From contig JAGGAD010000029.1 of NCBI GenBank assembly GCA_017889625.1, forward strand, positions 1 through 41,519: DNA of 41,519 nt, in the 5' to 3' direction. This DNA is from Bacillota bacterium (GTDB lineage: Bacteria; Bacillota; Negativicutes; Sporomusales; CTSoil-080). The number at the start of each line of letters is the position of its first letter. The stretch's first letter is position 1. Shown here one piece after another: positions 8,166 to 41,329 of this stretch. The position numbers and the translations under genes are program-made. The notes beneath the pieces are model-generated. The model worked only from the letters and a program-made list of their open reading frames with translations, did no database searches and was not told the DNA's origin.

Positions 8166-10196
8166 TTAAAATCCATATGAGTGACCATGAAAATTAAATA
8201 TAGTAGTCATAGATGAGTTGACCCAAATATTCATAACCAAGTCTTTATAACTAAATGCGATTATACATGTATCTGGATCTGTTGTTATGGCACCGAAAGC
8301 TATATTTGTGCCGGAAGTTTCACCTGTATCATAGTAATATACACCATTGCTAATGGTCTTGCCCGTATAAAGTGTGCAACCGCTATAAGTAGGCTTAAAA
8401 AACTCGGTATAGCCAGGTATCGTTATAGTGGAGGTTGTGCTGGTCAATACGAACGACCCAGCGACGGCAGTATAGCCTTTGACCACGTAAGTCCACGTGC
8501 CATTTGGTAGGCCAGTCAATGTGAAGTGGCCTTCGCTATCAGCAGTTACATCTGTGGTGACACCTGACGGTGAGGTAACCGTTAACGTTATATACGGTAC
8601 CGAGCAGCTATATAAATCTAAAATACCAATATCCCTTGAGATGTTTTTGCTGTAGGTTTCAGTTTTTATATCATTTTGCCGTTCAACTTTTTGCAGCATT
8701 TTATCGGTAAGATCATTCTGTTTATAGTTAGTTTTCATGTTCTTTGTTTGCAAACTGTGCTTGCCGCTGCCAAATGCCAATTGATATGCTACAGTACCAT
8801 ATAAGCCGCGGCTTAAATTGGAGTTTGTATACCCTAATTCAACTCTTAATTGCGACGTCAATTGCATGGTACTTCTTAAGCGGTACCCGATTTCATCATC
8901 ATGGTATTTATTGTCCCAATAGTAGCCCCCAGCATATACTTTTAGCCAAGGCATATGGACAAAAGATGTACCTGCTTCGATGTCCATCCCTTCAACCGCA
9001 CGAATAAATAGCGAATTAACGCTGTCGATTTCCCGTTCCCCGGTTACCGGATGATACCAGTTAGCACGGTATTCAGCCAACTTATTGAAATATTCAGCCC
9101 CTAGTCCTACTCGGGCCAGATTATATTGGAACCCATAGTCGTAGAAGGTATTAAAGCCTACTATACTACTTTTGTCTAGCGATAGTTTTCTCCATCCCAA
9201 CCCCAGATTTGCCGTAGAAGAATTTTCGCCGGTGTGAGCATAGCGGCCTTGCCAGAACCATAATCCACCAATATCATTCATTTCTCCCAACGGTTGCAGA
9301 CTTTCAAGGGAGTACAACGGTTTATTATCATCGCCAAAACTAAGCGATACTTCTGTCCGTTTCATCCATTCTGACCCGTTTTGTTTTGCGTTGTTTAGCA
9401 AATAGCCCACAAGATTGTTACCAATTGCCAACCTTTTCTCTTTCTCCGTTAATCCCTCATACGCATTGCTCTTATCCGCCGCAGTCGCTTGTTCAATGCC
9501 AGTTTTGTCAATAGTAAGGCTTGTTTCAGCTACCGTATCATTTTCGGCAGCTTCCACCTCCTTTGCCGTGTCTTCGGCAACTATCTTATCAGCTTCCGTC
9601 TCACTTGCCGCGTCCTCGGCAAATATCTTATCAGCTTCCGCCTCACTTGCCGCGTCCTCGGCAAATATCTTATCAGTTTTCGTCCCACTTGCCGTGCCAT
9701 CGGCAGCTATCTTATCAGTTTTCGCCCCACTTGTCGTGCCATCGGCAGCTATCTTATCAGCTTCCGCCTCACTTGCCGCGTCCTCGGCAGCTATCTTATC
9801 ATTTCCCGCAACAGTTGCTGCGGCCTTGGCAACCGGCTTATTCTTTTCCGCAACACTTGCTGCGGCCTTAGCAACCGGCTTATTCTTTTCCGTAATATTT
9901 GCTGCGGCCTTGGCAGCTGTCGCATCAGTTTCCGCAACACTTACCGCATCCCCGACAACAATCTTATCATTTCCCGCAATATTTGCTGTGTCCTCAGCAA
10001 CTGCCGTATCAGTTTCTGCAATATTTGCCGCGTCCTCGCCAACTGTCTTATTCTTTTCGGCAGTATCCGTAGCATTTGCTACATTCTGGGTGGCTGTCGC
10101 TGCCTGTACCGTCGACAAACAACCTGGCTGGCTGCTAACCATAATCAAAACTACTAACATGACGATATATTTAGATATCCCGTTGATTAAAACCAA
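8166..10196 (-). CDS. Inverse autotransporter (intimin/invasin-like) with 14-residue repeats
   Basis: A 676-residue outer-membrane protein. The TTG start at 10196 has AAGGAGGG 8 nt upstream. Residues 1-33 form a signal peptide ending VQAA. Residues about 51-218 are 12 tandem copies of a 14-residue unit (for example IAAEDAASEAEADK, PVAKAAASVAEKNK). Residues about 248-500 match the inverse-autotransporter beta-domain (LTEKEKRLAIGNNLVGYLL, SSIVGFNTFYDYGF, GLGAEYF, ANWYHPVTGER). This is a 12-strand barrel through which the C-terminal part is exported. Residues about 535-600 resemble a carboxypeptidase-regulatory/prealbumin-like beta-sandwich (VTADSEGHFTLTGLPNGTW). The last about 75 residues are unassigned. 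In known members the N-terminal periplasmic part often carries LysM; here Ala/Glu/Lys-rich repeats take that place. It follows the porin 2 gene with no terminator between, so the two may be co-transcribed. Confidence 0.85.
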   Translation of the reverse strand: MVLINGISKYIVMLVVLIMVSSQPGCLSTVQAATATQNVANATDTAEKNKTVGEDAANIAETDTAVAEDTANIAGNDKIVVGDAVSVAETDATAAKAAANITEKNKPVAKAAASVAEKNKPVAKAAATVAGNDKIAAEDAASEAEADKIAADGTTSGAKTDKIAADGTASGTKTDKIFAEDAASEAEADKIFAEDAASETEADKIVAEDTAKEVEAAENDTVAETSLTIDKTGIEQATAADKSNAYEGLTEKEKRLAIGNNLVGYLLNNAKQNGSEWMKRTEVSLSFGDDNKPLYSLESLQPLGEMNDIGGLWFWQGRYAHTGENSSTANLGLGWRKLSLDKSSIVGFNTFYDYGFQYNLARVGLGAEYFNKLAEYRANWYHPVTGEREIDSVNSLFIRAVEGMDIEAGTSFVHMPWLKVYAGGYYWDNKYHDDEIGYRLRSTMQLTSQLRVELGYTNSNLSRGLYGTVAYQLAFGSGKHSLQTKNMKTNYKQNDLTDKMLQKVERQNDIKTETYSKNISRDIGILDLYSCSVPYITLTVTSPSGVTTDVTADSEGHFTLTGLPNGTWTYVVKGYTAVAGSFVLTSTTSTITIPGYTEFFKPTYSGCTLYTGKTISNGVYYYDTGETSGTNIAFGAITTDPDTCIIAFSYKDLVMNIWVNSSMTTIFNFHGHSYGF
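9543..10046 (-). repeat. Twelve in-frame 42-bp tandem repeats in the autotransporter gene
   Basis: The 42-bp units encode residues 51-218 as 14-residue copies ending mostly in -DK or -NK. Adjacent copies are the most alike (IFAEDAASEAEADK next to IFAEDAASETEADK; the two PVAKAAA copies), as expected of copy-number change by slippage or unequal exchange. Fourteen residues equal two heptads, which fits a helical or coiled-coil rod in the periplasm. Confidence 0.9.
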
Positions 10197-16698: not shown

Positions 16699-18918
16699 TT
16701 GAATAAACTTTTTAGCTTATATAAAAAGTATCATAAATATAATATAATATTTTATTTAGTTATAATTTATATCTTATTTATCATCGCCATATGGACTATC
16801 GTTTATTATCGATTAAATTTAGAAAAAGCTAATGAACTAAGTAATGCACATAAATTTAGCGCTAGTTTATGTAAAGCATTGGAAGAACATACAAAAGAAA
16901 CTATATTAGCTGCAGATAAAACCCTTTTATTTATGAAACATCAATATGAACTTGAAGGTACCTCAATGAAAATAGATATTTATAAACCTAGTAATATACT
17001 GGGAGATGATAAGTTTACTTTACTAAGCGTGGCTGATGAATATGGTAATCTTCAGCTAAGTACTCAAGATTCATTTGTATTTTCTAATATTAGCGATAGA
17101 GACCATTTTAAATTTCATATGACTAGAGATAATGACGAACTTTATATTAGTAGTCCAATATTAGGTCGTTCATCAGGAGAATGGTCGATTCAATTAACAA
17201 GAAGAATCAATAAACCAGATGGAACTTTTGGTGGTGTTATCGTCGCCTCATTAAAGCCTTTATATTTTGCTGATTTTTACAAACAATTAGATTTAGGACC
17301 CGCTTTTTCAATTGGCTTAGTCGATAACAATGGCGAAATATCTGCATGGGAATATGGCACAAACTCATTAGTCGGTAAAAATTTAAATATCTTTAACTCA
17401 AAAACAATGCACCAAGTATTAACAAATGATCATGGGTCATTTATCGCCACAAGTACCATTGACAATATTGAGAGAATCTACAATTATCAACAAATAGATG
17501 GATTTCCTTATATCCTCGTAATTGGTAGATCAGTTGATAAAGTATTAGAAAACTATTATGTTTTGCTAAATGAATATATATTTTTAGCTCAGATTTGGTC
17601 ATTTATTATTTTTGTTGCAATTATGTTATTAGCATATATGATAATAATAAATAAGAAAGCCGAAGAAAAATATGAATATTTAGGGACACATGATTTTTTA
17701 ACTAATATCCCCAATAGATATTCTTTTGAAAAACTTTTAATAGAGGAACTCAACAAAAAAAATCCTGGAGTATTATTATTTATCGATTTGGATAATTTTA
17801 AAGTTATTAATGATACCTTTGGCCACGGCGTGGGCGATTTCACCTTAATTTCGTTAGTAAAAATATTTAATCAATATTTAAAAGAAACTGATACCATCGC
17901 TAGATGGGGCGGAGATGAATTTGCTATATTATTAAGAAATACCAATATTGATGATGGATTGAAAATAGCGGAACAGTTACGAGCATCTCTAGAAGACAAT
18001 CAAATTGTTATTCCTCTGACCGATATTTGTTTCGATGTTACAGCTAGTATCGGGGTTGTAGCTATTGATGGTAATCTTTCGCCCCAAAGTTTATTAGCCT
18101 ATGCTGATACAGCTTTATATACTTCTAAAAACAATGGAAAAAATAGAGTTACTCCTATAAGGTCTACTAAAGACAAAGGTGAGATTTCCCAAGTTAATCA
18201 AATGTTAACTAAAATACGCCAAGCTTTAAGCACCAAAAGCTTTGAAGTACATTATCAACCTATATATAAATTAAATGGAATGCTTAGTTATTATGAAGCT
18301 TTAATTAGAATGAGAGCTTCAGATGGAACGTTAATAACTGCAAATAAATTTATTCCTTTAGCAGAAAAATTCGGCCTAATGTCGCAATTAGACCGATTGA
18401 TTATTAAAACCGTATTAATCGATATGAAAAATAGATCAAATATAAAAGTATTCGTAAATATTTCCGGTAGTAGCTTAGGTGATGAAGTTTTATTAGAATT
18501 TATTGAGAGCTATCTCAAAGAAAGTGGTATAGATCCTAAAAGACTCGGCTTTGAAATAACAGAAACTACCGCCATAAATGATTTAGTAGCCTCTGAAATT
18601 TGGATTAATAAATTAAAAGCATTGGGCTGCAAATTTGCTCTGGACGATTTTGGCGTAGGATTTTCCTCATTTTCATATTTAAGCAAACTACCCATAGATT
18701 ATCTAAAAATCGATGGATCATTTGTCCGAAATTTAGATACTGATGATAAGCAAAAAGCATTAATTCTCGCCGTAAATGCGGTAGCGCATACATTAGGTAA
18801 GGAAACAATCGCTGAATTTGTGGAAAATGAAAGGATATTAGAAATATTAAAAGAGTTAAACGTAGATCATGTCCAAGGTTATTATTTAGGGAAACCTGAA
18901 CCTTTAAAGGAAGAATAA
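16699..18918 (+). CDS. Membrane GGDEF-EAL c-di-GMP enzyme with Cache-like sensor
   Basis: A 739-residue protein starting at TTG. TM1 is at residues about 15-39, followed by an extracytoplasmic Cache-like sensor to about 295 (LLSVADEYGNLQLSTQ, GEWSIQLTRRI), then TM2 about 296-316. The GGDEF domain (about 330-490) keeps GGDEF at 404-408, so diguanylate cyclase activity is possible. The product-inhibition RxxD site reads KETD, that is Lys for Arg. The EAL domain (about 500-735) keeps EAL at 533-535, FVNIS, EITETT, LDDFGVGFSSFSYL, LKIDGSFV and QGYYLGKP, so phosphodiesterase activity is also possible. Which activity dominates cannot be told. The gene is strikingly AT-rich compared with rsmD or the EF-G2 gene. 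It is divergent from chemoreceptor 1. Confidence 0.92.
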   Translation: MNKLFSLYKKYHKYNIIFYLVIIYILFIIAIWTIVYYRLNLEKANELSNAHKFSASLCKALEEHTKETILAADKTLLFMKHQYELEGTSMKIDIYKPSNILGDDKFTLLSVADEYGNLQLSTQDSFVFSNISDRDHFKFHMTRDNDELYISSPILGRSSGEWSIQLTRRINKPDGTFGGVIVASLKPLYFADFYKQLDLGPAFSIGLVDNNGEISAWEYGTNSLVGKNLNIFNSKTMHQVLTNDHGSFIATSTIDNIERIYNYQQIDGFPYILVIGRSVDKVLENYYVLLNEYIFLAQIWSFIIFVAIMLLAYMIIINKKAEEKYEYLGTHDFLTNIPNRYSFEKLLIEELNKKNPGVLLFIDLDNFKVINDTFGHGVGDFTLISLVKIFNQYLKETDTIARWGGDEFAILLRNTNIDDGLKIAEQLRASLEDNQIVIPLTDICFDVTASIGVVAIDGNLSPQSLLAYADTALYTSKNNGKNRVTPIRSTKDKGEISQVNQMLTKIRQALSTKSFEVHYQPIYKLNGMLSYYEALIRMRASDGTLITANKFIPLAEKFGLMSQLDRLIIKTVLIDMKNRSNIKVFVNISGSSLGDEVLLEFIESYLKESGIDPKRLGFEITETTAINDLVASEIWINKLKALGCKFALDDFGVGFSSFSYLSKLPIDYLKIDGSFVRNLDTDDKQKALILAVNAVAHTLGKETIAEFVENERILEILKELNVDHVQGYYLGKPEPLKEE

Positions 18919-36691: not shown

Positions 36692-38074
36692 CTATTCTTG
36701 AATTCCCGGTATTTTAGGAAGCTCGTCAAAGCCTTTTTGAAGCTCCTCATCTGTTGGAATGTAGTCACTCATTGTTCCTGCGTGGAAGGAATTGTATGCT
36801 GTCATATCAAAAAATCCGGTTCCAGTTAGTCCAAAAAGGATGGTTTTTTCTTCCCCGGTCTCCTTACATTTCAACGCTTCATCAATAGCAGCACGAATAG
36901 CATGAGCAGATTCTGGAGCTGGCAGGATGCTTTCATACTTTGCAAAGAAAGTAGCCGCCTCAAATACCGCGGTTTGCTCTACTGATACCGCTTCCATATA
37001 TCCATCGTGATACAGCTTGGAAAGGACTGGTGACATTCCGTGATATCTCAGTCCACCTGCATGGATTGGTGAGGGAGTGAACGTACAGCCCAGCGTGTAC
37101 ATTTTTGCCATAGGGGTAATTTTCCCTGTGTCGCAGTAATCATACACATACCGTCCTCTTGTCAAAGATGGACATGATGCCGGCTCCACTGCTACCAAGC
37201 GTGGATTAGCCTTACCTAAAAGCTTATCCCTCATAAACGGTGCAATTAGGCCACCAAGATTCGAACCGCCGCCTGCGCAGCCAATTACTACGTCGGGATA
37301 TTCTCCAAGTATTTTCATCGCTTGCTCACTTTCCAAGCCGATAATTGACTGGTGAAGCAGTACCTGATTCAGCACGGAACCTAACACATATTTGCAGCCC
37401 GCTGTAGTAACAGCCTTTTCTACCGCTTCAGAAATTGCACAGCCAAGACTTCCTGTAGTATTCGGATTCGTTGCTAAAATCTTTTTTCCGGCTTCTGTCG
37501 TATTGCTGGGACTGGATATTACGGTTGCACCAAAGGTTTCCATGATTGATTTACGGAAAGGCTTTTGTTCATAAGATGCCTTTACCATATATACTGTGAG
37601 CGGAATTCCGAAATAACAGCAAGCTTCCGCCAGCGCCGTTCCCCACTGCCCAGCCCCCGTTTCTGTCGTAAGTCCCTTTAAGCCCTGCTCCTTTGCGTAA
37701 TACGCCTGCGCAATAGCCGAGTTCAGTTTATGACTTCCGGATGTATTATTTCCTTCGAATTTATAGTAAATCTTCGCCGGAGTTTCTAACGCCTTTTCTA
37801 AATTGTATGCACGGCACAATGGTGAAGGCCGGTAATTTTTATACATTTCCAAAACTTCTTCAGGTATATCAACATACCTCGTTGTCTCATCCAGTTCCTG
37901 ATGAGACAACTTTTCGCAGAATACAGGGTACAAATCTTCCGGTACTGCCGGTTTTCCTGTTGCTGGAATTAACATAGGATCAGGCTTTGCTTTCATGTCT
38001 GCACGCAAATTGTACCATTGTGTTGGCATCTGATCCTCAGTTAAATATAATCTGTGTGGAATTTTCTTTGTCAT
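36692..38074 (-). CDS. trpB2: TrpB2-type tryptophan synthase beta-like protein
   Basis: A 460-residue PLP enzyme that joins indole and serine to give tryptophan. It opens KKIPHRLYLTEDQMPTQWYN, the long N-terminus of the TrpB2 group rather than TrpB1. The PLP lysine is in NTSGSHKLNSAIAQ (about K117), followed by TETGAGQWGTALAEAC and the phosphate-binding GCAGGGSNLGG (about 271-281). No trpA is adjacent, in keeping with TrpB2 acting without TrpA, for example in indole salvage. It is controlled by a tryptophan T-box upstream. SD AGGGAG precedes the ATG. Confidence 0.93.
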   Translation of the reverse strand: MTKKIPHRLYLTEDQMPTQWYNLRADMKAKPDPMLIPATGKPAVPEDLYPVFCEKLSHQELDETTRYVDIPEEVLEMYKNYRPSPLCRAYNLEKALETPAKIYYKFEGNNTSGSHKLNSAIAQAYYAKEQGLKGLTTETGAGQWGTALAEACCYFGIPLTVYMVKASYEQKPFRKSIMETFGATVISSPSNTTEAGKKILATNPNTTGSLGCAISEAVEKAVTTAGCKYVLGSVLNQVLLHQSIIGLESEQAMKILGEYPDVVIGCAGGGSNLGGLIAPFMRDKLLGKANPRLVAVEPASCPSLTRGRYVYDYCDTGKITPMAKMYTLGCTFTPSPIHAGGLRYHGMSPVLSKLYHDGYMEAVSVEQTAVFEAATFFAKYESILPAPESAHAIRAAIDEALKCKETGEEKTILFGLTGTGFFDMTAYNSFHAGTMSDYIPTDEELQKGFDELPKIPGIQE

Positions 38075-38112: not shown

Positions 38113-38395
38113 AAAAAAGACTTTTGTCTCAACCTTCACTGAGACAAAAGTCTATACTTCTGTGGTACCACTCAAATTGATGCGAAAACGCACCCACTTT
38201 TTCTGCATACACTATGATATGCACTTCCTTGGTAACGGGTGAAGTTCCCGTCAAGTACTACTAGCCAGCTACCTGTAACTGCTTTTCGCCCTGCCCTCCT
38301 AAGTCCATTCAGCTAAGGCTTCCCTGTTGCGATTCCACCACCCGCAACTCTCTGTAAGAGACCAGCACAAAACCTACTCTTCTTAATCATTGGTT
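38113..38395 (-). ncRNA. T-box leader (tryptophan) of trpB2
   Basis: Read on the minus strand, Stem I has the AGAGAG and GGTGGTGGAATCG elements, and the specifier loop GAATGGAC places UGG (Trp) at 38307-38305. The antiterminator bulge motif reads GAGTGGTACCACA (38175-38162), close to the T-box consensus. A terminator follows: a 14-bp perfect stem 38118-38131 / 38140-38153 and a T-run. Uncharged tRNA-Trp should stabilise the antiterminator and switch trpB2 on. The Trp specifier fits the gene's function. Confidence 0.92.
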
Positions 38396-38417
38396 TCAGT
38401 ATATTCTTATTAACTGT

Positions 38418-38688: not shown

Positions 38689-38717
38689 TTGACTTCATTT
38701 GTAGTTTTGTGTATTAT
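38689..38717 (+). promoter_or_regulatory. Promoter of the c-di-GMP riboswitch transcript
   Basis: TTGACT (38689-38694), 17-bp spacer, TATTAT (38712-38717). Predicted transcription start near 38724, about 20 nt before the aptamer. Confidence 0.85.
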
Positions 38718-38745
38718 TGAGTAGAAAATTGAAATTTTAGCAAAC

Positions 38746-38821
38746 TTATTGAAAGATAAGGACGCAAAGCCGTGGGTCTAAGGATGAATAGTCTATGATT
38801 GCCTGGTTGCCGATTCAATAA
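38746..38821 (+). ncRNA. c-di-GMP-I (GEMM-I) riboswitch aptamer
   Basis: The GEMM-I core is present in order: GGACGCAAAGCC, GGGTCTAAGG, ACTATGATTG-like (TCTATGATTG), CCTGGTTGCCG. It is closed by P1, TTATTGAA (38746-38753) with TTCAATAA (38814-38821). A terminator-like hairpin follows (38832-38876: CACTAGTCT / AGATTGGTG then TTAATTTTTTT). The downstream target is the 55-residue membrane protein at 38941. Ligand binding probably decides readthrough, but whether c-di-GMP turns it on or off cannot be told by eye. Confidence 0.93.
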
Positions 38822-38831
38822 TGAATTGTAG

Positions 38832-38876
38832 TTAATTGGCACTAGTCTGTTTTTAGATTGGTGTTAATTTTTTTCG
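38832..38876 (+). terminator. Expression-platform terminator of the GEMM-I riboswitch
   Basis: CACTAGTCT (38840-38848) pairs with AGATTGGTG (38855-38863), extended by TTAA/TTAA outside a small bulge, then seven Ts. Confidence 0.75.
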
Positions 38877-38940
38877 CACCAAGATGCTAGTGTTTTATTG
38901 TCAATAGCGACCAGAGAAAAAAGAAAATAGGGTGATTTTT

Positions 38941-39108
38941 TTGGAATATTGGACAATATCAGTCGCTGCATTATTGGTTTATTCAGTTAGCTTTATTTTT
39001 TATCGCGTTTATCTCTTAATAAAGCCAAAAAACAAATATCTTTTTGTTAATAATTCTCACCCCATAGATGTTATAAGAACGTACCATGCTAATAAAACTC
39101 CTAAATAA
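38941..39108 (+). CDS. Small single-pass membrane protein under c-di-GMP riboswitch
   Basis: A 55-residue protein (MEYWTISVAALLVYSVSFIF followed by YRVYLLIKPKNKYLF, ending YHANKTPK) with one membrane helix at residues about 5-27 and a basic, probably cytoplasmic, tail. The TTG start follows AGGGTGAT (38929-38936) by about 5 nt; a GTG three codons upstream is open but overlaps that SD. It is the only frame after the riboswitch terminator, and no further plus-strand gene follows, so it is the apparent c-di-GMP target. I do not recognise a family. Confidence 0.65.
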   Translation: MEYWTISVAALLVYSVSFIFYRVYLLIKPKNKYLFVNNSHPIDVIRTYHANKTPK

Positions 39109-39114
39109 CAAAAC

Positions 39115-39151
39115 TGTCGCAAGGACGGTTCTAGTGACAGCACTATTTTTC
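39115..39151 (+). repeat. REP-like 37-nt repeat, copy B
   Basis: It begins TGTCGCAAGGACGGTTCT, continues to GTGACAGCACTATTTTTC, and is in the same orientation as 35139-35175. It lies just after the small membrane protein gene and can form a TGTC...GACA hairpin, so it may also end that transcript. Confidence 0.6.
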
Positions 39152-39210
39152 GCACTTTTTCTCTGTTTTTTCCTGTTACGTCAGCTAGTAATCGACCTAA
39201 TAATTCTGTT

Positions 39211-39330
39211 TTAACGGTTAGAATTTTTTTCCCGAAGCCGGCTCTCCATCCCCACTAAACTCATACTTTCCTGTACTATAAAATAAAATTCCTTGATAGC
39301 ATTGGCAAAATCGGTGTTCTCCTGAAACAT
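39211..39330 (-). CDS. Possible 39-residue ORF
   Basis: The frame MFQENTDFANAIKEFYFIVQ continues through ESMSLVGMESRLREKNSNR. It is amphipathic and helical in character, in a gene-free stretch after the chemoreceptor 3 terminator. The upstream SD is weak and an in-frame stop lies five codons before the ATG. Not recognised; it could be a fragment of a lost gene. Confidence 0.3.
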   Translation of the reverse strand: MFQENTDFANAIKEFYFIVQESMSLVGMESRLREKNSNR

Positions 39331-39432
39331 TTCTATATCCGGTTAGATCATAAGATATCAAATAAATCTGATAATAACTAGCAAGACACGTCCTAAAATG
39401 ACAAGTTGTGACGGTTATATCCCGGTTATTTT

Positions 39433-39574: not shown

Positions 39575-41329
39575 TCAAATTTTAAATTTATGAATCGCCA
39601 CTTGCAAATCTTCTGCCATTTTTGCTAAGTACTGACTTGACGCCGCAATTTCTTCCATTGACGCAGTCTGTTCTTCTGTAGCTGACGAAATAGTCTGGGT
39701 TTCTTCAGCTACATTCCTACTCTCTCTATCAATATCCTGTACAGCATTAACTACATTTTGGGTTCCACTTGTAACTTCTTGAATAGCGGCAGATATTTCA
39801 TGAATTTGATTATTGATTTCCCGAACCATTGTTAATATTTCTTCAAAACTCCGACCTGCGACCACTACATCTTTTGCTCCTGCATCGACTTCTTTTTTGC
39901 TGTCATTCATAAAAACTACCGCACTATCCGTTTTTGCTTGTACTTCACTGATTAATTCTGTTATCTGTTTTGCCGATTCTTGTGATTGCTCGGCAAGTTT
40001 TCTGACCTCTTCTGCGACCACGGCAAAACCACGCCCTGCCTCGCCTGCCCTTGCAGCTTCGATGGCAGCATTTAAAGCTAATAGATTAGTTTGTCCTGAA
40101 ATACTGGAAATAGCGCCAACAATTTGCCCGATCTGTTTTGACTTTTCTTCTAACTCGCCAATTACTTTGGCAGTGTCATTCGTTTTTTGTTCAATGATGT
40201 TCATTTGATTTACCGCTTGTTTTATTGCCTGCTCTCCATTATTAGCGGTCAACGCTGTTTTCTCAGCCGAAGTTGAAACAACCGTCGTATTGTCGGCCAC
40301 TTGATTAATGGCCTTAGATATTTGTTGAACAATTTCATTTGCATTAGTAGCCAAATTTAATTGATTTTCCGATCCTTGTGCAACATCAGTTACTGAAGCT
40401 GCTACTTGAGTAGATGCCTGCGCCGATTGTTCCGCACTGGCCGTAAGCTCTTCAGAAGATGACGCTAATTTTTCCGAAGTATTGGCTAATTGCTTAATTA
40501 ATGCTCTGATATTTTTATTCATTACATCAACCGATTTCGTTACCGTGCCAAATTCACTTTTGTCCCGCAAATTTTGTTCAGAAACCTCTTTTGAAAAATC
40601 CCCCTTGGCAACGGTTTCCAAAAACCGCACAACATCTGACAAGCGTTTTGTAATACTTTTAGAAATGATCGAACCAAGTAAAACCCCTAAGAAAATCGCT
40701 ATAACAATAATACTAATAAAAATTATATTGGCTGCCGCAAAACTTTTTTGGTTTTCCTTATTCAGATCTTCAGCCGATTGTTTAGTTTCTTTTGTTAAAT
40801 TAGTGAGATTTTCATTAAATTGTTCTATTAATGATTGAACTTGTTGTTTATACAATGCATAAGCTTCTACATCTTTATTCTGTAGAGCAAGTTCAATTAC
40901 TTTACTTCTTGCCTCGCGATATTTTCCTAGAACATCGCGCATATCTTTGACTTCGGCTTTTTGTTTATCACTTATTGGCATCTGTTCAAACTTTGTCAAA
41001 TTTTCATCAAATAATTGAGCTCTTTTATTAATTTCATCCACTAAACCTTGACTTTGTTTCTGATCCTTTGTCAGCATTAATTCCATTATATTTTTATCAA
41101 TATAGCGTGCATGTATTCGATTGTCACTCATAAGCTCAACTGCAATTAATTTTTCATTATACATCTTATTAACAACCACGTTAGAATTGTTCAAAAACAA
41201 GTATCCGGTGACACCAACACAAATCAATCCAATAATTAAAACTAAAATTAATAACGCTAATCTTTGTACTACCTTAAGATTATTTAACCAATTCAAATTC
41301 AAATTCAATCGCCCCTTAATATTTAACAT
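39575..41329 (-). CDS. Methyl-accepting chemotaxis protein 3
   Basis: A 584-residue chemoreceptor. TM1 is at residues about 24-46, the four-helix-bundle sensor about 47-200 ([38 protein letters not shown]), TM2 about 203-225, HAMP about 226-280 and the signalling domain about 285-584. Its tip is [20 protein letters not shown] then [22 protein letters not shown], with SISGQ and GEAGR where chemoreceptors 1 and 2 have GIASQ and GEQGR, so it is a more distant paralogue. A piece of a close relative of its sensor survives at 10210-10341. The first ATG (41329) lacks an SD; a TTG nine codons in has AAGGGG suitably placed, so the true start is uncertain. Confidence 0.92.

Follow-up and report, generated by a model that had tools for sequence, protein, structure and literature searches.

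Why should a c-di-GMP-I riboswitch be devoted to one small membrane protein? The well-understood targets of c-di-GMP riboswitches are enzymes, chemoreceptors, adhesins, flagella and pili. We analyzed such an arrangement in a contig of a Bacillota bacterium belonging to the Sporomusales (JAGGAD010000029.1, 41,519 nt; this whole stretch is called the window in the following). A preliminary description, made from the sequence alone, had proposed a complete unit consisting of a consensus-like promoter, a GEMM-I aptamer, a terminator and one small, TTG-started membrane protein with no further gene. All these elements were recovered (Table 1), and the next gene was found to be convergent. As a class, promoter-like sites are not more frequent in this region than in shuffled sequence (3 versus 3.5), and the pattern scan detected two terminators where 0.6 were expected.

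Table 1 Features of the riboswitch-ORF unit, in positions of the window.
Feature	Position	Strand	Basis and remarks
Promoter, sigma-70-type (TTGACT, 17 nt, TATTAT)	38689..38717	+	Consensus scan, 10/12 matches; transcription start expected at about 38724, just 5′ of the aptamer
c-di-GMP-I (GEMM-I) aptamer	38729..38814	+	RF01051, full length, 70.9 bits
Predicted antiterminator 5′ strand CUGGU-UGCCGAUU, overlapping the aptamer 3′ end	38803..38815	+	Duplex with 38834-38845
Intrinsic terminator, 16-pair stem and T-run	38834..38874	+	5′ arm (38834-38845) doubles as antiterminator 3′ strand
Shine-Dalgarno-like AGGGTGAT	38929..38936	+	Sequence
55-aa ORF with TTG start; single transmembrane helix, basic tail	38941..39108	+	No Pfam family, no homologue by sequence
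Terminator-like hairpin 3′ of the stop codon, T-rich beyond	about 39114..39140	+	Fold, −11.6 kcal/mol; missed by the pattern scan

On one side, the unit is flanked by a tryptophan-synthase-beta-like gene on the opposite strand (36692-38074), led by a T-box (38137-38399, minus strand). The next annotatable gene downstream encodes a chemoreceptor (39575-41329), also on the opposite strand and convergent to the 55-aa ORF. With these neighbors, the riboswitch-ORF unit looks monocistronic. The membrane GGDEF-EAL enzyme mentioned in the preliminary description was located as a dCache-GGDEF-EAL protein of 739 aa (16699-18918, plus strand), but at a distance of about 20 kb it is not linked to the unit and carries no weight here; an Rfam scan of the window found no riboswitch 5′ of its gene. 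Elsewhere in the window (8166-10196, minus strand), a 676-aa protein is encoded whose long N-terminal region is A/D/E/K-rich and highly repetitive.

The covariance model RF01051, the check suggested at the outset, matched the aptamer over model positions 1-87, at twice its gathering score of 35. In this riboswitch class, the base at Vc2 position 20 specifies the ligand, G for c-di-GMP and A for cGAMP. Its equivalent in the window, base 38740 within GCAAAC, is a G, which assigns the aptamer to the c-di-GMP rather than the cGAMP type. In its full-length aptamer, ligand-specifying G and terminator behind, the locus thus resembles other members of the c-di-GMP-I class; it differs in its target, which is an orphan 55-aa membrane protein and not a c-di-GMP enzyme, chemoreceptor, adhesin or pilus gene. 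The genome to which the window belongs contains nine c-di-GMP-I aptamers and, judged from the inspected translations, the others precede response-regulator-like, GGDEF-like, histidine-kinase-like and chemoreceptor-like genes, among others. A weaker aptamer of this genome (L057, G000:C2:23354-23440; 54.3 bits) is followed on its 3′ side by a G+C-rich stretch unlike the surrounding DNA and then by a MarR-like gene.

The 55-aa ORF begins with TTG downstream of the motif AGGGTG (38929-38934). An alternative GTG start at 38932 would yield 58 aa, but the Shine-Dalgarno spacing favors 38941. The protein contains one hydrophobic stretch (KD 1.89 over 19 residues), and its basic tail suggests, following the positive-inside rule, a cytoplasmic C terminus. 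Codon usage carries no information at a length of 55 codons. In dinucleotide shuffles of the region 38870-39300, a Shine-Dalgarno-preceded frame of at least 45 codons arose in 10 of 1000 cases, and one that also encoded a transmembrane helix in a single case. The protein matched no Pfam family; a match to mitochondrial pyruvate carriers was rejected as chance (E 0.035, below the cut-off). No homologue was found in the genome contig collection, and 28 genomes of the order yielded just four weak matches, none of them considered real and none with an aptamer nearby.

Besides that of the window, we surveyed 95 aptamers of the order (Sporomusa and relatives), eight of them from the window's genome, and read the first Shine-Dalgarno-preceded frames in the DNA that follows each. 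Thirteen of the 95 precede a protein of about 50 aa with a single N-terminal helix and a basic tail, the latter containing the conserved motif KSIFQKP..HVEIRTW (extended consensus KSIFQKP..HVEIRTWRK). Alignment A1 comprises 12 of these 13 proteins, the thirteenth being that of L090/L151. The GEMM-I-associated one-TM family, as we call it, is defined here by alignment A2, and a narrower alignment was used in the genome contig scan. One clear family protein is encoded behind an aptamer in the window's own genome (L051, G000:C52), as a second unit there.

A profile search of the whole genomes of the order gave 13 strong matches, all at the surveyed aptamer loci, and at the class level three further matches, two of them with an aptamer. 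Named loci belong to Sporomusa ovata, S. sp. KB1, S. silvacetica, S. acidovorans, Propionispora sp. 2/2-37 and metagenome bins. An aptamer lies upstream at seven of the eight loci of the named collection; none was detected upstream of the Propionispora copy L187, even with the E-value limit raised to 1. Since the sequences for the profile came from aptamer loci, the family's association with the aptamer within the order is partly by construction; of the five members that were not part of the first training set (L151, L153, L154, L155 and L183), four have an aptamer. Neither Pfam nor NCBIfam contains a model for this family, which appears to be undescribed in the libraries used, and a phylum-wide extension revealed no convincing member beyond the Negativicutes.

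Family members occur in single or two copies. Most pairs show a dN/dS of 0.1-0.4 at moderate distances, and the closest pairs, with few changes, 0.4-0.8. These values indicate that the family members are real proteins and that the family, in the pairs compared, is under purifying selection. The AlphaFold model of one member consists of a helix (residues 2-31) followed by a low-confidence tail. A same-strand HD-domain gene (HD-GYP-type) lies 3′ of the one-TM gene in S. ovata, KB1, S. silvacetica and L186, and a small soluble protein is encoded 5′ of it in L062, L090 and L154. We dropped an assignment of this soluble protein as Spo0E-like, made by eye, for want of Pfam support. Further small genes were seen around the order's aptamers. 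In L075, L084, L085 and L093, a stand-alone protein of about 56 aa without Pfam match is encoded 3′ of the one-TM gene; it resembles the N-terminal region of HD-GYP-type genes elsewhere (LTPGLVVGREVVSREGIVLLEKGGRLT). Several other small soluble families without Pfam support directly follow c-di-GMP-I aptamers of the order (for example MLQIFRTVEKKRSELEELRVIIQ.., MINRECVYKTIKGYLPTAEEDL.. and MVDKQDFEMTKEELEELMKKLP..; loci L059, L062, L065, L072, L073, L090, L092, L103, L110, L114, L117, L123, L124 and L136).

Does the window unit belong to this family? In its shape, about 50 aa with one transmembrane helix near the N terminus and a basic C-terminal tail, the 55-aa protein fits. In its sequence, it scored 2.4 bits against the family HMM, as good as 1034 of 5000 segment shuffles (20%). 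Pairwise tests, global and tail-only, were equally poor (pairwise sum matched by 138 of 1000), and the protein is absent among the matches of the profile search and does not carry the conserved tail motif. The leader was compared separately, with a model of the roughly 70 bases behind the aptamer that was trained on seven family leaders, leaving out the window and L051. The window scored 31.2 bits and L051 30.7 bits; L103, which was likewise untrained and fronts a small soluble gene only, reached 51.6 bits, and the next best of all others 16.1. In this model, the window leader outranks every leader outside the family clade, and at the sequence level it is homologous to the family leaders. The window unit shares with this family, found in Sporomusa, Propionispora and their relatives, a homologous leader, the protein length, the single helix, the basic tail and the position behind the aptamer, and its genome carries one further copy. 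It departs from the family in that its protein has no significant sequence similarity to the family proteins and in that the unit lacks an HD-domain or small soluble gene.

The simplest reading is common descent with the family unit and a protein that changed fast, and it is possible that the original gene behind the leader was replaced by an unrelated frame. Related Sporomusa-type bacteria have the same switch before the one-TM family, so that the window unit probably represents a rapidly evolving copy of a genuine c-di-GMP output. At the syntenic locus of G001, a genome of the same family, the riboswitch is absent. The T-box beside the tryptophan-synthase-like gene is kept in G001, G002, G011, G012 and G013, with no c-di-GMP-I aptamer beside it in any of the five, so these genomes do not indicate that the unit is ancestral at this site. 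The expectation that the riboswitch-gene pairing would be conserved in relatives was thus borne out in part: an aptamer before a one-TM protein of about 50 aa recurs in the order with a homologous leader, whereas the 55-codon frame has no homologues and the G001 site no riboswitch. That the riboswitch is dedicated to a small membrane protein gained support as a recurrent pattern.

The polarity of the switch can be predicted from competing helices. The antiterminator duplex has a free energy of −14.0 kcal/mol, a stability not reached by any of 300 shuffles. L051 keeps an equivalent helix, with an A-U replacing the window's U-A. The helix is predicted to be strong in five leaders (the window, L051, L062, L068 and L090) and weak in two others (L061 and L103), and we therefore do not claim one polarity for the whole leader clade. 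As the aptamer fold and the antiterminator are mutually exclusive, the ligand should favor the terminator, and c-di-GMP most likely turns the 55-aa gene off. At low c-di-GMP, the aptamer 3′ end would pair with the terminator 5′ arm; with the antiterminator formed, RNA polymerase would read through and the one-helix protein would be made. At high c-di-GMP, the aptamer would retain its own 3′ end, the terminator would form and expression would stop. Experiments in Clostridioides difficile demonstrated the same polarity: there, Cdi1_9 terminates transcription prematurely and thereby represses the small protein CD2309 (PMC3649979).

Three other explanations have to be weighed. The unit could be as proposed but act as an ON switch, in which c-di-GMP binding promotes read-through. 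The minimum free energy folds are ambiguous for several family leaders, and one C. difficile c-di-GMP-I target is induced 10-fold at high c-di-GMP (PMC3649979); as the antiterminator takes the aptamer 3′ end, however, aptamer folding should favor the terminator, and we consider an ON switch quite unlikely. The ORF itself could be decayed or coincidental, leaving a relic with a degenerated gene or a terminated aptamer RNA that buffers c-di-GMP. The lack of detectable relatives, the missing match to the very family that shares the leader and the uninformative codon usage are consistent with such a scenario, as is L047 in G001, a leader partly similar to that of the window with no such one-TM ORF behind it. 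Yet Shine-Dalgarno sequence, start, length and transmembrane helix coincided in so few shuffles, and position, size and topology of the ORF agree so well with what the leader clade predicts, that this scenario is unlikely as well.

We consider it very unlikely that the small protein is a hydrophobic peptide of the type I toxin kind, kept silent by transcription termination and possibly by an antisense RNA. It does resemble such toxins in general shape, by its size, its single helix and its basic tail, and c-di-GMP-I riboswitches of C. difficile front the antitoxin RNAs RCd11 and RCd12 (PMC7699646). The CD0977.1/RCd11 system indeed resembles the window locus in combining a small hydrophobic membrane protein with a nearby c-di-GMP-I riboswitch, but there the riboswitch precedes and drives the antisense antitoxin and not the toxin, whereas the window riboswitch lies before the protein itself, with no apparent antitoxin. 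Antisense promoter-like sites (minus strand, 39280-39374) are no more frequent than expected by chance. A related family in single or two copies, under purifying selection and with an HD-domain gene behind it in four genomes, is also unlike a toxin module.

The riboswitch class is known, and so are small orphan targets from C. difficile, among them proteins of 58 aa under c-di-GMP-I control (PMC11477304, PMC3649979). The closest parallel is the set Cdi1_8 to Cdi1_11 (CD1990.3, CD2309, CD1424 and CD3368.2), likewise several copies of a c-di-GMP-I riboswitch that each precede a small domainless protein. Those units are recent duplicates with 88-93% identity, whereas the Sporomusa-type units are old and diverged; the likeness between the proteins is one of description, and the genome contig scan yielded no C. 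difficile relative of the Sporomusa-type family. In the open-access papers searched, we found nothing that links c-di-GMP-I riboswitches to Sporomusa, nor anything on small membrane proteins under a c-di-GMP riboswitch.

Taken together, we regard it as fairly probable that the window contains a single-gene OFF-switch unit, a diverged copy of the Sporomusa-type family unit, whose product serves as a small membrane partner. When c-di-GMP is low and cells are motile and planktonic, the 55-residue protein would then accompany a larger one. We propose this partner or tuning role on the grounds of the predicted expression at low c-di-GMP and of the HD-GYP-type phosphodiesterase beside some relatives; the one-helix protein would most plausibly tune a larger membrane or signaling protein by binding to it. 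The initial suggestion of a small effector of c-di-GMP signaling is, in this respect, plausible. Where the phosphodiesterase lies in the same operon behind an OFF switch, c-di-GMP would repress its own breakdown, amounting to positive feedback.

More tentatively, the Negativicutes may possess a family of c-di-GMP-repressed one-helix proteins that act as protein-binding outputs and are sometimes co-transcribed with the HD-GYP-type phosphodiesterase, with the leader conserved and the protein diverged beyond recognition in the window. Besides C. difficile, this is a second lineage in which c-di-GMP-I riboswitches are repeatedly paired with small proteins. It adds a conserved small membrane protein family outside the public family models. 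The family has a defined motif, is present in named genomes (those of Sporomusa ovata, S. silvacetica, S. acidovorans and Propionispora sp.) and offers a connection with HD-domain phosphodiesterases that can be tested.
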